A stretch of DNA of 42,606 nucleotides from positions 1 through 42,606 of the forward strand of contig CACOEA010000005.1 of the NCBI GenBank assembly GCA_902626185.1, written 5' to 3'. Under the pieces are notes generated by a model that did not search any database, had not been told where the DNA came from, and saw only the letters and a list, made by a program, of their open reading frames with translations. Below are positions 3,788-8,932 of the stretch, one piece after another. Numbering within the stretch: position 1 is the stretch's first letter; every line of letters begins with the position of its first letter. Made by a program: the position numbers and the translations under genes. The DNA is from an uncultured Pelagibacteraceae bacterium. Its GTDB lineage: Bacteria; Pseudomonadota; Alphaproteobacteria; Pelagibacterales; Pelagibacteraceae.

Positions 3788-4108
3788 ATGGCTACAAAAT
3801 CAGTTACAGATGAAAGCTTTGACAGTGACGTCATCAAATCAGACAAACCTATCATAGTTGATTTTTGGGCAGAATGGTGTGGTCCTTGTAAACAAATAGG
3901 TCCTGTTCTTGAAGAAATTTCAAATGAGATGAAAGATCAAATAATTATTGCCAAACATAATATTGATCAAGAACCCAATATGCCGACAAAATACGGAATT
4001 AAAGGAATCCCTACAATGCTTTTGTTCAAAAATGGAGAGCTAAAATCTACCAAAGTAGGCGCAACAACGAAGTCTAACATTGTTTCTTGGATTAAAGAAA
4101 ATATTTAA
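3788..4108 (+). CDS. trxA: Thioredoxin
   Basis: 106 aa, normal thioredoxin length. The redox site WCGPC lies at residues 30-34 (C31, C34), and the cis-proline loop GIPTM at 73-77. It is a cytosolic dithiol reductant for ribonucleotide reductase, methionine sulfoxide reductase and other oxidised proteins. The ATG at 3788 gives the family's usual N-terminus. It converges with folC: the TAA of trxA and the TAA of folC on the other strand share the palindrome TTAA (4105-4108), so there is no intergenic terminator. Confidence 0.97.
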   Translation: MATKSVTDESFDSDVIKSDKPIIVDFWAEWCGPCKQIGPVLEEISNEMKDQIIIAKHNIDQEPNMPTKYGIKGIPTMLLFKNGELKSTKVGATTKSNIVSWIKENI

Positions 4109-5379
4109 TTTTTATTAAGGACATTTCCACAAAGATAAAGAGAGCCAAACACACATATTATTTTTTTTTCTTTAGAACTTATAATTTTTAATGCCTGTTC
4201 AAAACTTTTAGAGGACTCAACTCTATAATCATTTTTTTCAGCAATTCTAGACAATAAGGTGTTCGGTAACGCAGCAGTTTCATTTTCAATTGGCACTGTA
4301 AAGATCTTTTTAAAAATACCTCTAAATTGCTTTATAAACAAATCTGGATTTTTATTTTTCGTCATACCCCATATACCATAGACTGGCAGATTTAAAGTTT
4401 TAAGATATTCCGCTAAGTTTCTTGCACTTGTTTCAGAATGACAACCATCGATTAAAATTTTCTCATTTTTGTTAATCATCTTGATTATCTTTCCCTTGTT
4501 TATATATTCAAGTCTTCCTTGATACTTAATTTTAGGAATAGTCTTTAAGATGATTTTCTTAGGTATTTTCAAATCTAAAGCAATTTTAATCGCAAGACAT
4601 AAATTGATTAGCAATCCCTTAGAATGAATATATTTAGATTTTAAAAGTAACTTATTTTTTTTATCCTTATAATAAAAATTATTTTTAGATTTAATCAATT
4701 TCCAAGAATGTGAATAATCAATATTGCTGTTGTTATTTTTTAATCTTTTTTTTATTTTTTTTAAAACTGAAGATTTTTGTTTTCCAACGTAAATCTTAGT
4801 AAAATTACTTAAAAATCCAACTTTTTGATTAATTACTTCATCTAGTGTTTTCTTTCTTAAAAAATTTAGATGCTGTTTATTTATATTTACAACTACTTGT
4901 GCTCTGGGAAAATCAAAAAGATTTGTAGAGTCTTTTGCAAAAAGAGCTCCAGCTTCAATTAAATTAAAATCATTTTTTCTTTTTGCTGCGTTTAAAATGA
5001 ACACAACTGTTAATACTTCAAAGATTGTTAAATTTATTTTCTGTTTTTTTATAATATGAATTGTATCTTTAATTTCTCTATAGTTTAAGAATTCTTTCCC
5101 CATCCAAAATCGCTCTTTAATATTTTTAATACTTGGAGAAATATATGCAGACGTTGTTTGTTGGTTAGCCTCTATAAAAAATTTAAGGGATGTTAAGAGT
5201 GAAAATTTACCATCACTCCCAATCACATTAATTACATTTTTAAGTTGTTTTTCAGGGTGATCTAATTTTTTTAAAACTGTCTTAATTCTTTTAAGATCGA
5301 AGTTTATTGTTTTTTTAAATAATTTTGATTTAGCTAGCTGATTGTAAAGATTGATCGATTGTGACATTAGATGGCTCAT
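4105..5379 (-). CDS. folC: Bifunctional dihydrofolate synthase / folylpolyglutamate synthase
   Basis: 424 aa Mur-ligase-like enzyme adding glutamate to dihydropteroate and folates. Family marks: SPSIKNIKERF (81-91), IEAGALFAKDSTN (141-153), the metal-site His in NKQHLNFL (H170), the likely carbamylated Lys in NQKVGF (K186), YQGRLE (287-291) and DGCHSETSA (311-319, family DGAHN). The ATP loop is unusual: GSDGKFS (54-60) where the family has GTNGKGS; the lysine is kept. The ATG at 5379 overlaps accD by 50 nt; a second ATG at 5367 is also possible. Last gene of the minus-strand string, after accD as in many alphaproteobacteria. Confidence 0.9.
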   Translation of the reverse strand: MSHLMSQSINLYNQLAKSKLFKKTINFDLKRIKTVLKKLDHPEKQLKNVINVIGSDGKFSLLTSLKFFIEANQQTTSAYISPSIKNIKERFWMGKEFLNYREIKDTIHIIKKQKINLTIFEVLTVVFILNAAKRKNDFNLIEAGALFAKDSTNLFDFPRAQVVVNINKQHLNFLRKKTLDEVINQKVGFLSNFTKIYVGKQKSSVLKKIKKRLKNNNSNIDYSHSWKLIKSKNNFYYKDKKNKLLLKSKYIHSKGLLINLCLAIKIALDLKIPKKIILKTIPKIKYQGRLEYINKGKIIKMINKNEKILIDGCHSETSARNLAEYLKTLNLPVYGIWGMTKNKNPDLFIKQFRGIFKKIFTVPIENETAALPNTLLSRIAEKNDYRVESSKSFEQALKIISSKEKKIICVFGSLYLCGNVLNKN

Positions 5380-6247
5380 TTTTAGCTTGAGCCTCTGCTT
5401 TTTTCAATAGAACATTTAGTAAGGTTCCGATAGTTGAATTTAAGTACTTTCTCTCAACTACTAAATCTATACCGCCATGCTCTTTTACATACTCTGCAGT
5501 TTGGAACTCTTCTGGCAATGTTTCTCTCACGGTATCTTGAATAACTCTTCTACCAGCAAATCCTATAGTAGCTTTTGGTTCAGCTATTAAGATGTCACCT
5601 AACATTGCCCAAGAAGCTGTCACTCCTCCTGTAGTTGGATCAGTCAATACTACGATATAAGGTATATTTTTTCTCTTTAATTCATTTACAGCTAACGCTG
5701 TTCTAGACATTTGCATTAATGCAATAGAAGACTCCATCATTCTTTGACCACCACTACAGCTGAAGAAAATAAATGGCAAATTATTCTCTATAGAATTTTG
5801 AACTCCAGCAATGAACGCTTCACCTGAGGCAGCACCAAATGATCCACCAATAAATCTAAAATCCTGAGCTCCAACAATGACTTCAATATTCTTAACTTTG
5901 CCTTTTGCAATAAGAACAGCATCATTTTGCTGAGTTATTTTTCTAGCAGTTTTTAATCTATCGATATATCTTTTATTATCCTCAAACTTCAGAGGATCAT
6001 CTTTTGGAACAGGTGTCTCGATTATTTCATATTCACTGTTATCAAAAAATATTTTAAATCTTTCTACGCAAGACAATTTGTGATGAGAACCACATTTAGG
6101 GCAACACTTAAGATTTGATTGAAGATCTTCTTTATAAATTAAATTTTTACATCCACAAGTAGTCCAAAGATTATCTTCTGTCTTAGAAGATTTTTTTTCA
6201 AAGAGTGATTTTATTTTTGGTTTTATAAATTTTGTAATCCAGTTCAT
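5330..6247 (-). CDS. accD: Acetyl-CoA carboxylase carboxyltransferase subunit beta
   Basis: 305 aa. With AccA (encoded at 34990-36093) it transfers CO2 from biotin to acetyl-CoA, making malonyl-CoA for fatty-acid synthesis. An N-terminal zinc ribbon (residues 28-56) precedes the crotonase-like carboxyltransferase core: RFIGGSFGAASGEAF, FFSCSGGQRMMES, LTDPTTGGVTASWAMLGD and GFAGRRVIQDTVRETLP. The first zinc knuckle is CGC (C31, C33) where the family has CxxC, a one-residue deletion; the second, CPKC (C49, C52), is normal. Its ATG overlaps the trpA stop by 4 nt, implying translational coupling. Confidence 0.95.
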   Translation of the reverse strand: MNWITKFIKPKIKSLFEKKSSKTEDNLWTTCGCKNLIYKEDLQSNLKCCPKCGSHHKLSCVERFKIFFDNSEYEIIETPVPKDDPLKFEDNKRYIDRLKTARKITQQNDAVLIAKGKVKNIEVIVGAQDFRFIGGSFGAASGEAFIAGVQNSIENNLPFIFFSCSGGQRMMESSIALMQMSRTALAVNELKRKNIPYIVVLTDPTTGGVTASWAMLGDILIAEPKATIGFAGRRVIQDTVRETLPEEFQTAEYVKEHGGIDLVVERKYLNSTIGTLLNVLLKKAEAQAKNEPSNVTIDQSLQSAS

Positions 6248-7044
6248 AAAATTTTGTTTTTAAGATTGTATACAACTTTATCAATTTTTGTGACAGGATT
6301 TTGTCTCATTTTGAGCGATTTGGTAATTATTTTACAAATAAATGAGCCAATAACGAGGCCATCTGCAGATTTCAATGCTTTGATATTCTTATCTGTAATA
6401 CCAAATCCTATAACTAGATTTTTCCTGGGACTGATTCTTTTTATCATATTGTAATTTTTTAGTATTTTATTTGGTGAAACTTTAAGTTTTCCACCAGTGG
6501 TCGAAAGCATAGAAATATAATAAATCATATCGTGAGAGTCTTTTATAATCTTTTTCATTCTTTCTTTTGATGTAGTTGGAGACAATAATTGAACAAAATT
6601 TATTGACTTTTTTTTACATTTCTTTGCAAAATTTTTATTTTCTGGATAAGGAAGATCAACAACAATTAAACCATCCACACCAGAAGCTTTGCAATTATTT
6701 AAAAAATTATTTTCTCCATTTTGATAGATTAAATTAAAATAACCCATCAATATTAAAGGTTTATTAGGATTAGATTTTTTAAATTTTTTTACTATGTAAA
6801 AAACATCTTTAAGTTTTATTCCATTCTTTAAGGCTCTGTAAGAACTAGTCTGGATCTGTCCACCATCTGCGATTGGCGTGTTATGAGGAAAACCTAATTC
6901 TAAAATATCAGTATATTTTGAAATTGAATATAATATTTTAAGTGAATTTTTTTTTGTATTATCACCAGCAACTGTATAAGTGATAAGAGCCGGTCTCTTT
7001 TCTTTTCTACAATGTTCAAAAGCTAGGGTAATTTTTGATTTCAT
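6244..7044 (-). CDS. trpA: Tryptophan synthase alpha chain (divergent)
   Basis: 266 aa TIM barrel that cleaves indole-3-glycerol phosphate to indole and glyceraldehyde-3-phosphate. Catalytic residues are kept and happen to number as in Salmonella: E49 (ILELG) and D60 (PIADGGQIQ). The phosphate-binding elements GFGI and IGSFI are present, and the loop TTGG keeps the threonine equivalent to T183. The normally conserved PFSDP segment is PHNTP, so Asp56, which forms a salt bridge with Lys167 of TrpB, is Thr. It overlaps trpB and accD by 4 nt each. Confidence 0.9.
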   Translation of the reverse strand: MKSKITLAFEHCRKEKRPALITYTVAGDNTKKNSLKILYSISKYTDILELGFPHNTPIADGGQIQTSSYRALKNGIKLKDVFYIVKKFKKSNPNKPLILMGYFNLIYQNGENNFLNNCKASGVDGLIVVDLPYPENKNFAKKCKKKSINFVQLLSPTTSKERMKKIIKDSHDMIYYISMLSTTGGKLKVSPNKILKNYNMIKRISPRKNLVIGFGITDKNIKALKSADGLVIGSFICKIITKSLKMRQNPVTKIDKVVYNLKNKIL

Positions 7045-8267
7045 CTTATATACGAACCTAATTTTTGTTTAATAATGTCTTTGTCTTTAATGCTATCACC
7101 ACAAGAATTAACAACAATTATCTCAGAAGATTTACACCTAGGTGCTATCTTAATTGCTTCAGCAAAAGCATGAGAAGGTTCAAGAGATGGAGAAATATTT
7201 TCCAATTGAGAAACTAATTGATAAGCTTTTAAAGCTTCCTCATCTGTTGCAGAAACATATCTAGCACGTTTTGTATCTTTTAAGAAACAATGAAGTGGCG
7301 AAATTCCAGGGTACATTAGTCCCGCCGAACATGATTCTATAGATCCTATTTGTCCTTCTTTATCTTGAATTACGTATTGAGCAGCTCCATGTAAAATTCC
7401 TACCTTAGATCCATTTGTTAATGGAGCAGCATGAAGCTTGCTATTTTTAGGTCCACCTGCTTCAATTCCGATAAATTCTGCATTTGTATCCATGAACTCA
7501 TTCCAAAAACCCATAGCAGAGCTTCCACCTCCAACGCAATTCAAAAGTTTTAACTTATTAGGTATTCTTCCAAATTCATCTTTTATTTGTTCTATAAGTT
7601 CCCTTGAAATTTGTGCAGTGCTAAATGCGCAAATTTTTATAAATATATTTGGGCCCACCGTTGATCCTACACACATGTGGGTAGTGTCACAATTTGAAAC
7701 CCAATAACGCATACATTCACTAACAGCATCAACTAGAGTTTGGCTTCCTGTTGTTACAGGAACGATTTCAGCGCCATTTTTTTTCATAGCTTCTACATTC
7801 GGTCTTTGCCTTTTTATATCTCTTGAACCCATGAATATTTTACATTTAAGTCCAAATTTTTTTGCTGCCATGGCAAGCATTTTTCCGGCATAGCCGGCTC
7901 CTGTGTCTCCCACAATATATTTTTTACCAGCTCTCTTAGCAATCAGGCAATGCACTGTTGCATTATAAATTTTATGGGCACCACCATTTGCTTCTGACAC
8001 CACCTTTGCATAGATTTGTGCTCCACCTAAATGTTCTGTTAAATTTTCAAGTTTAATAAAAGGAGTTGGAGTTCCAACATAGTTTTTAAAATGATAATCT
8101 CTTTCTTTTAAGAATTTTTTATCTTTCCTCAACTTTGCAAATAATTTGGTTAAATCATCAATAGGTTTTTTTAAAGTTTCAGGAATGAAATTTCCACCAA
8201 ATTTACCACCATACATATAGTTTTTATCATGTTGATCAATTAGCGGTATACCTTTTTTAATTTTCAT
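7041..8267 (-). CDS. trpB: Tryptophan synthase beta chain (divergent active-site network)
   Basis: 408 aa PLP enzyme of fold type II that joins indole and serine to give tryptophan. The PLP lysine lies in GGAHK (K99 = Salmonella K87), the phosphate cup is GGGSSAMG (246-253), and the LEPSHA motif is kept. Several near-invariant residues differ: the indole-activating Glu109 is Asp (D121, VGDTGAG), QHG after it is YAG, Lys167 is Val (V179), Asp305 is Met (M318), and the VNLSGRGDKD segment that supplies Ser377 reads VNSCGDSIKDKD. Alignment is gap-free from K99 to V179. It is still most simply TrpB, given the adjoining trpA, but altered catalysis or coupling is likely. No trpF lies between pyrF and trpB. 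Confidence 0.88.
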   Translation of the reverse strand: MKIKKGIPLIDQHDKNYMYGGKFGGNFIPETLKKPIDDLTKLFAKLRKDKKFLKERDYHFKNYVGTPTPFIKLENLTEHLGGAQIYAKVVSEANGGAHKIYNATVHCLIAKRAGKKYIVGDTGAGYAGKMLAMAAKKFGLKCKIFMGSRDIKRQRPNVEAMKKNGAEIVPVTTGSQTLVDAVSECMRYWVSNCDTTHMCVGSTVGPNIFIKICAFSTAQISRELIEQIKDEFGRIPNKLKLLNCVGGGSSAMGFWNEFMDTNAEFIGIEAGGPKNSKLHAAPLTNGSKVGILHGAAQYVIQDKEGQIGSIESCSAGLMYPGISPLHCFLKDTKRARYVSATDEEALKAYQLVSQLENISPSLEPSHAFAEAIKIAPRCKSSEIIVVNSCGDSIKDKDIIKQKLGSYIR

Positions 8268-8278
8268 TATTAATTCTT

Positions 8279-8932
8279 TTATAATGATTTAATTAGCTTT
8301 TGAATATTCTTTTTAATATTTCCTTGGGTAACTGAACGCCCAATAACAAGCCAGTCAGATTTGACTTTTTTGGCTTCCATAGATCGTTTTTGATCATAAT
8401 TTCTTTTACCTAACTGGACGCCTGGAGTAATGATTTCTTTTTTGAAAACTTTTCTGACAACACTTACTTCAAAAGGACTACAGACCAAAGCATCTAAAGA
8501 TGCTTGTCTAGCAAGCTTTGCTTGATGAGCTACCAGATTTTTAACAGATTTATTGTAGCCTATTAATTTTAAATCTCTGTCATCGAGAGATGTTAAGGTT
8601 GACACCCCAACGACCTTGATTGAGCCAGACACTTTTTTAACCAACCTCAAGGCTTTAAGACCTGATGAGATATGGACTGTAAGGTAATTTATTTTCAAAT
8701 CTTTCAATGCTTTAACTGCAGACAGCATTGTATTTACAGTGTCATTTAATTTGAGATCAATGAAAATAATTTTATTTCTTAATTTGGATACAAAATGTCT
8801 CCCTTTTTTTGAATTCATAAATTCAAGTCCAAATTTATAGCCAATTTTAATTTTCTTGGTTTGTGATTGATTAATTATTTTTTTTGCTTTTTTAAGGTCA
8901 GTAGTATCGACAGCAATAAATATTTTTTTCAT
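8279..8932 (-). CDS. pyrF: Orotidine 5'-phosphate decarboxylase
   Basis: 217 aa TIM-barrel enzyme for the last step of UMP synthesis. The catalytic Asp-Lys-Asp set is in IDLKLNDTVNT (family LDLKFHDIPNT; His replaced by Asn). TPGVQLG and the C-terminal phosphate motif VIGRSVTQ match the family (TPGIR and VGRPIT). N-terminal IAVDTTDLKKA corresponds to the usual ALD-like start. It overlaps ihfB by 4 nt and is 11 nt ahead of trpB. Confidence 0.9.
   Translation of the reverse strand: MKKIFIAVDTTDLKKAKKIINQSQTKKIKIGYKFGLEFMNSKKGRHFVSKLRNKIIFIDLKLNDTVNTMLSAVKALKDLKINYLTVHISSGLKALRLVKKVSGSIKVVGVSTLTSLDDRDLKLIGYNKSVKNLVAHQAKLARQASLDALVCSPFEVSVVRKVFKKEIITPGVQLGKRNYDQKRSMEAKKVKSDWLVIGRSVTQGNIKKNIQKLIKSL

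Follow-up and report, generated by a model that had tools for sequence, protein, structure and literature searches.

A rewired, probably functional tryptophan synthase pair in the Pelagibacterales, and a trpB allele probably read through a programmed frameshift in its genus

Introduction

As a standard model for allostery and substrate channelling, tryptophan synthase has had the network that couples its two subunits probed largely by single-residue breakage in the enteric enzyme. What, then, is to be made of a natural pair in which much of that network has been replaced? The question is raised by the adjacent trpB and trpA genes on the minus strand of a 42,606-nucleotide stretch of DNA from an uncultured Pelagibacteraceae bacterium (GCA_902626185.1, CACOEA010000005.1; hereafter the window), which is a whole contig (C5) of a SAR11 genome assembly of 799 kb that is 66% complete. 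With a probability of roughly 0.8, we take the pair to be the organism's tryptophan synthase, belonging to a class specific to the Pelagibacterales and having a rewired subunit interface; its activity, coupling and channelling we infer from sequence. That the synthase still works is suggested by this being the sole trpB found in the genome, by the presence of trpE and trpC and by strong purifying selection on genes of this class in the genus.

Identity of the pair and its residue replacements

Residues were compared with those of Escherichia coli TrpB and TrpA (from NC_000913), whose numbering we take as that of the Salmonella enzymes. Relative to the canonical TrpB1/TrpA of these bacteria, the window's pair keeps the fold, the pyridoxal phosphate (PLP) lysine K87, the GGGS phosphate loop, R141 and E350 in TrpB, E49, D60 and T183 in TrpA, and the adjacency of the two genes. 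It differs in TrpB by E109D, Q114Y, H115A, K167V, N236S, D305M, S377C, R379D, G380S and D381I and in TrpA by F54H, S55N and D56T. Of the features by which the enteric enzyme couples its subunits, β Glu109 is thus an Asp, the α Asp56–β Lys167 salt bridge is replaced by Thr and Val, and the β Arg141–Asp305 bridge keeps R141 but has M305. A preliminary description of this DNA, made by eye, had claimed that TrpA keeps E49 and D60 with Thr for Asp56, that TrpB keeps the PLP lysine with Asp at 109, Tyr-Ala at 114–115, Val at 167 and Met at 305, and that the network is consequently changed on both subunits; the alignments of both proteins bear this out. It had also assumed an alignment without gaps, which holds at the named positions but not throughout, and an altered Ser377 region, which is indeed altered (C377, D379, S380, I381), although C377 itself is not unusual, since 22 of 30 alphaproteobacterial loci have Cys there.

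A misassignment of these positions, which would have undone the comparison, is very unlikely, given phmmer alignments to solved TrpBs and the predicted fold. The AlphaFold model of the window's TrpB has a mean predicted local distance difference test (pLDDT) score of 94.4, and its closest solved fold is Pyrococcus furiosus TrpB (6cut_A; Z 64.7, root-mean-square deviation 1.0 Å, 383 residues aligned). The protein scores 393.5 bits against TIGR00263, barely above the cut-off of 392.45, which some relatives of its class narrowly miss; best matches in other alphaproteobacterial families reach 549–658 bits (fragments, and genomes with a distant homologue only, set aside). TrpA scores 206.5 bits against TIGR00262 (cut-off 102.35). 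The TrpB2 profile TIGR01415 gives TrpB 98.7 bits, far below its cut-off of 518.85; TrpB2 is a distant homologue only, and the window's trpB sits with trpA. The nearest named relative found is the TrpB of Pelagibacteraceae bacterium AG-325-J13 (98% identity).

A class of its own within the Alphaproteobacteria

The replacements would mean little if most Alphaproteobacteria shared them, and they do not. Among 34 TrpBs of other alphaproteobacterial orders, comprising the 30 best-scoring loci (L186-L215) and four low-scoring ones (L274-L277), E109, Q114, H115, K167 and D305 are present in every one, D56 is present in all 29 TrpAs found at those loci, and L279, H280 and Y306 are ordinary in all 30 of L186-L215. 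A second family of the window's own order is canonical too in three genomes (L243-L245).

Among its kin, on the other hand, the window's pair is not unusual: M305 aside, it is the common Pelagibacterales form. The window's TrpB was matched in 80 of 101 genomes of the genus and 126 of 147 of the family, counts that take in fragments, TrpBs of other types at 27–40% identity and weak matches to other PLP enzymes; among the matches listed, most of the best ones are long and 63–91% identical to it. When 184 distinct TrpB rows were aligned, D109 and V167 occurred together in 127 and neither occurred alone. (The 184 include L147 and L273, a distant second PLP enzyme of genome G391; neither has a TrpA partner or enters the pairs counted below.) We define these 127 Pelagibacterales sequences as type 1, so that D109 and V167 are invariant by definition. 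Y114 reaches 92% of the type, A115 91% and S236 100% (rounded), while R141 is found in 127 of 127. The loss of D305, although real in the window, does not extend to the class: 124 of the 127 keep D305, and M305 is confined to the window and two near relatives (L031, L035).

Joint change at the salt bridge and exchange of pairs at one locus

The two positions of the lost salt bridge change together. In all 171 distinct pairs the combination is unmixed, with either K/R167 and D/E56 (41 pairs) or V/L167 and T/A/C56 (130 pairs). On a tree of 47 combined pairs built without both columns (all trees here are quick trees), charge required two changes at each site, with identical rows charged. The preliminary description had seen co-evolution in the loss of both partners, and the direction of that claim stands; its statistical strength does not, as the losses may number only one or two. 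Co-evolution is well illustrated, not strongly tested, by these alignments.

Part of this variety comes from other pairs that occupy the same place in the chromosome. Fourteen Pelagibacteraceae genomes have pairs whose TrpB is only 27–40% identical to the window's, in the gene order of the window as drawn for 12 of the 14 (L140 is cut by a contig end). Type 2 (L132, L133, L137, L138, L286) combines K/R167 with E56 in TrpA and groups with L246-L248 of the sister family; type 3 (L139-L146, L280) combines L167 with T56. At two type 2 loci of the genus, median identities to the window are 78% for rpsA, 64% for accD, 46% for pyrF and 34% for trpB, and at the type 3 loci of the genus they are 77% for pyrF, 59% for rpsA, 35% for accD and 29% for trpB. 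Since flanking genes exceed trpB in identity, the pair has been exchanged within a kept neighbourhood, an exchange that perhaps included pyrF in type 2 or accD in type 3. No outside source of type 3 was found: in 378 Pseudomonadota genomes, 353 of them with a match, none of the matches listed, which were not read for residues, exceeds 39% identity. For type 2, searched for in 385 genomes of the class, the best of the matches listed reaches 52% identity.

These observations bear directly on the most durable alternative, which the preliminary description had entertained, namely that the subunits are uncoupled, TrpB using free indole, with channelling or allostery lost. The absence of both D56 and K167, of D305 too in the window's subclade, and the replacement of Q114 and H115 are what such a loss would leave behind. 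Yet trpA follows trpB in 19 of 19 loci drawn, and the other pair types at the locus bring a matched trpB and trpA; this kept order and this matching argue that the fit between the subunits still matters, and we consider uncoupling improbable. An evenly balanced proposition, by contrast, is that Pelagibacterales hold interchangeable, internally matched pairs at one locus, each with its own wiring (types 1–3), to which the genus adds a horizontally spreading type 1 allele whose only way of being translated is a programmed +1 frameshift, described below.

A burst of replacement followed by constraint

Type 1 forms one group with support of 100 and a stem of 0.94 changes per column. The type 1 consensus departs from the canonical residue at 44 of the 123 positions that are near-invariant in 38 canonical rows. 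Constraint within the genus is strong: over 27 intact genes of type 1 from it, the ratio of nonsynonymous to synonymous substitution rates (dN/dS) is about 0.05 in one half of the gene and 0.04 in the other, with a median dS of about 1.65 that is near saturation. A burst and then strong constraint is the pattern expected from a change of working mode.

Could the named sites simply have drifted, being variable in this family and devoid of meaning? SAR11 proteins are divergent generally, and canonical alphaproteobacterial TrpB (30 loci) is 43% identical to the window's, hardly different from the 42% of accD (4 loci). Drift would nevertheless have to account for sites 109, 114, 115 and 167 being invariant in all 34 TrpBs of other orders and near-fixed again with other residues in type 1, and for the matched change at 56/167. 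We regard it as very unlikely.

As a separate observation, the type 1 TrpBs of two SAR11 families (L252-L272 against the window) share about 69% identity, where accD is only 41% and pyrF 34% identical. Transfer between the families would give this similarity, and so would unusually slow evolution once the burst was over.

Pathway context

A second trpB, for which a search had been proposed beforehand, was not found in the 799 kb of the window's genome, whereas trpE and trpC are both present there; each of these two is present in 43 of 49 genomes chosen for this check. Kagan et al. 2008 (PMC2395257) give Pelagibacter ubique HTCC1062 one trpB copy, argued to be necessarily functional, and report trpF missing from 3 of 37 SAR11-like contigs. 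At the loci measured here, there is no room for trpF between pyrF and trpB in 3 of 3 M305 loci, 13 of 118 other type 1 loci, 3 of 8 of type 3 and 0 of 8 of type 2. One type 1 pair in our set (L161) comes from a genome that is probably HTCC1062.

Together with a dN/dS near 0.05, the sole trpB and the retained trpE and trpC leave unsupported the suggestion that the pair is uncoupled or uses another nucleophile. The least probable alternative, that the pair is now a different β-replacement enzyme joining something other than indole while tryptophan is taken from seawater, could appeal to the changed carboxylate loop, to N236S, Y186M and R379D (each in 83–100% of type 1), to the missing trpF of the window's lineage and to split trpA and trpC genes in one genome described below, but is very unlikely beside the retention of trpE and trpC in the same genome, the kept catalytic residues of TrpA, a trpF-sized gap before trpB in 105 of 118 type 1 loci measured and a second trpB that was not found in a genome 66% complete.

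Several observations weigh against the pair being a working, rewired synthase. First of all, a review of the enteric enzyme calls the Glu109 interaction essential and describes the closed state as destabilised when Q114, R141 or D305 is changed (PMC9512447), so that the combined replacements should cost activity unless compensated. Second, a concentration of the changes in the COMM domain was looked for and not found: 14 of its 36 conserved sites have changed, as have 30 of 87 outside it (p 0.68). Third, types 1 and 3 as a single clade are not rejected by the TrpB data (p-AU, from the approximately unbiased test, 0.50; 38 rows), so that the independent losses of the bridge are one or two; a claim of two proven independent losses was dropped for this reason. 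Fourth, with the genome 66% complete, a second trpB is possible in the remainder. Second matches in relatives are gene fragments, weak matches to other PLP enzymes or the two TrpBs of genome G110 (8% contamination), which share 81% and 76% identity with the window's. Fifth, trpF was found neither in the window's genome nor at its locus (it was found in 33 of the 49 chosen genomes), so that some other isomerase must act if indole-3-glycerol phosphate is to be supplied; that a HisA/PriA-like enzyme fills this step in lineages lacking trpF is a guess. Finally, in the closed SAR11 genome G139 (L131, L169), probably IMCC9063, trpA is present as two open reading frames (ORFs) in different frames (residues 1–91 and 95–266) and trpC is also split, with two overlapping matches in two frames; sequencing error is possible, and the pathway may not be intact everywhere.

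A working model for the rewired enzyme

How might such an enzyme function? Type 1 would have acquired its replacements in a burst, along a single long branch, and have changed very little since. TrpA would still cleave indole-3-glycerol phosphate using E49 and D60, and TrpB would still make the aminoacrylate from serine on K87-bound PLP and add indole, Asp109 standing in for Glu109. The two subunits would remain associated, but the contact between α loop 2 and the β COMM domain would be neutral (T/A/C56 with V167) instead of the D56–K167 salt bridge. The loop that binds the serine carboxylate mostly carries Y114-A115 in place of Q114-H115. With a neutral contact and such a loop, other contacts would set the switching between open and closed states. 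The window's subclade has also lost one partner of the R141–D305 closing bridge (M305).

A frameshifted trpB in relatives

The codon of Asp109 marks a second peculiarity of the genus. By a pattern search, 14 of 169 genomes of the genus carry a trpB with one extra base at the D109-T110 codons (9 of them among those of the genus TrpB search, 101 genomes), while the window's gene is intact. The motif reads ATT/ATC GTG GGG GAT ACC [A/C] GGC GCN. Frame 0 stops 11–23 codons after the motif starts, and the +1 frame yields the remaining 286 residues (289 in L153). Decay of these genes is ruled out by dN/dS values of 0.050 for one half and 0.047 for the other, the median dS being about 1.25. No synonymous change is seen at codons 119–123 in any of the 14, and no other run of this kind in the gene is as long; shuffling produced a run of at least 5 somewhere in 1186 of 200,000 trials, and not one of 2000 random draws of 14 intact genes had it at this site.

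In all 14, GGGGG stands two bases before ACC-AGG/CGG, which gives the Shine-Dalgarno-like purine run and the slow A-site codon looked for in a site of the prfB kind. Arginine codons AGG, CGG and CGC occur at 3.8, 0.9 and 0.35 per thousand in 23 ORFs of the window, against 27 for AGA. In prfB, an AGGGGG-like internal Shine-Dalgarno sequence lies three bases before the slippery sequence (PMC12421855). The A-site codon of prfB is a stop, whereas that of trpB is a sense codon. In our model, the ribosome would read GTG GGG GAT ACC and slip by +1 to GGC, prompted by the GGGGG run, with ACC in the P site while the A site holds the uncommon arginine codon AGG or CGG. D109 would survive a shift after ACC and be lost by one at GGG; we favour the former.

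The trait is scattered among relatives. On a tree of the flanking accD and pyrF (52 rows) it needs 13 changes, against a shuffled mean of 12.5. On a tree of trpB outside the motif (46 rows) it needs 9, at least 6 of them forced by starred branches; 10 of 500 shuffles are as low as 9, so some clustering remains. Two frameshifted genes (L158 and L285) are 95–100% identical to the intact L004 at codons 1–20 and beyond 281 and 70–93% identical in between, as recombination would leave. Judged from these patterns, the extra base is probably a programmed frameshift that spreads by recombination.

Restart at a TTG in place of frameshifting was considered and is argued against by L282, 1 of the 14, which has TCG there; in the other 13 it is possible. 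No common stimulatory RNA structure was seen by eye in single-sequence folds of 7 of the 14 genes, for which no covariation was computed. The motif had 0 exact matches in viral contigs and 13 in 397 genomes of the family, all in the genus itself. In the 9 frameshifted genomes checked, trpE is present in 6 and trpC in 5, and 4 of the 14 frameshifted loci have no room for trpF.

Organisation of the locus

The minus-strand gene order is rpsA, ihfB, pyrF, trpB, trpA, accD, folC, the first two named by eye from their ORFs. trpA adjoins trpB with an overlap of 4 bases (7041-7044). Coordinates are collected in Table 1.

Table 1. Features of the trpBA locus (window positions unless another record is named)
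Feature	Position	Strand	Basis or remark
folC, beyond accD	4105-5379	minus	
accD, conserved downstream neighbour	5330-6247	minus	ORF and profile match
trpA, tryptophan synthase alpha subunit, 266 aa	6244-7044	minus	ORF, TIGR00262
TrpA Asp60 codon, catalytic, kept	6865-6867	minus	
Thr codon replacing TrpA Asp56, alpha partner of the salt bridge	6877-6879	minus	
TrpA Glu49 codon, catalytic, kept	6898-6900	minus	
trpB, tryptophan synthase beta subunit, type 1, 408 aa	7041-8267	minus	ORF, TIGR00263, homology and fold
Cys377-Gly378-Asp379 codons (residues 389-391)	7095-7103	minus	C377 common in Alphaproteobacteria, D379 not
ATG (Met) codon replacing Asp305 (residue 318)	7314-7316	minus	window's subclade only
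Val codon replacing Lys167 (residue 179), beta partner of the inter-subunit salt bridge	7731-7733	minus	
Arg141 codon (residue 153), kept	7809-7811	minus	
Tyr-Ala codons replacing Gln114-His115 (residues 126-127), substrate-carboxylate loop	7887-7892	minus	
Asp codon replacing Glu109 (residue 121)	7905-7907	minus	homologous to the +1 frameshift site of 14 relatives, intact here
PLP lysine codon, K87 (residue 99), kept	7971-7973	minus	alignment
pyrF-trpB gap, 11 bases	8268-8278	minus	without the trpF that most relatives have there
pyrF, conserved upstream neighbour	8279-8932	minus	ORF and profile match
Frameshifted trpB loci L152-L160, L281-L285; one of them in the named record AG-907-B17 (L110)	motif at 5404 of CACEQK010000008.1		

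Relation to known systems

The SAR11 TrpB was known before as a separate cluster. The third trpB group of Kagan et al. (PMC2395257), made up of environmental sequences together with P. ubique and showing this gene order, corresponds to type 1; the trpB section of that paper gives no catalytic or interface residues, no partner sites in TrpA and no alternative pairs, and the word 'frameshift' is absent from its main text. Nor is trpB mentioned in the main text of a paper on conserved prokaryotic frame transitions (PMC3711429). Among the papers listed in our literature searches, we saw no report of the residue rewiring or of a trpB frameshift. The closest laboratory counterparts are the Salmonella β-K167T, β-Q114A and β-S377A mutants (PDB 6duc, 7lt4, 6dzo, 6d0v, 6xe3), at three positions that also differ here; those changes are single and to other residues, whereas the SAR11 changes are combined and conserved in nature.

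Perspectives

Very abundant marine bacteria have replaced E109, Q114-H115 and both partners of the salt bridge, and in the window's lineage D305 too, in what appears to be a working enzyme. In the type 1 pair, nature itself tests which of the contacts coupling cannot do without, and biocatalysis might draw on it for a TrpB with different tuning. Few bacterial genes are known to be read through programmed frameshifting; if the frameshifted alleles are translated, a biosynthetic gene would join them, recoded in a manner like that of prfB.

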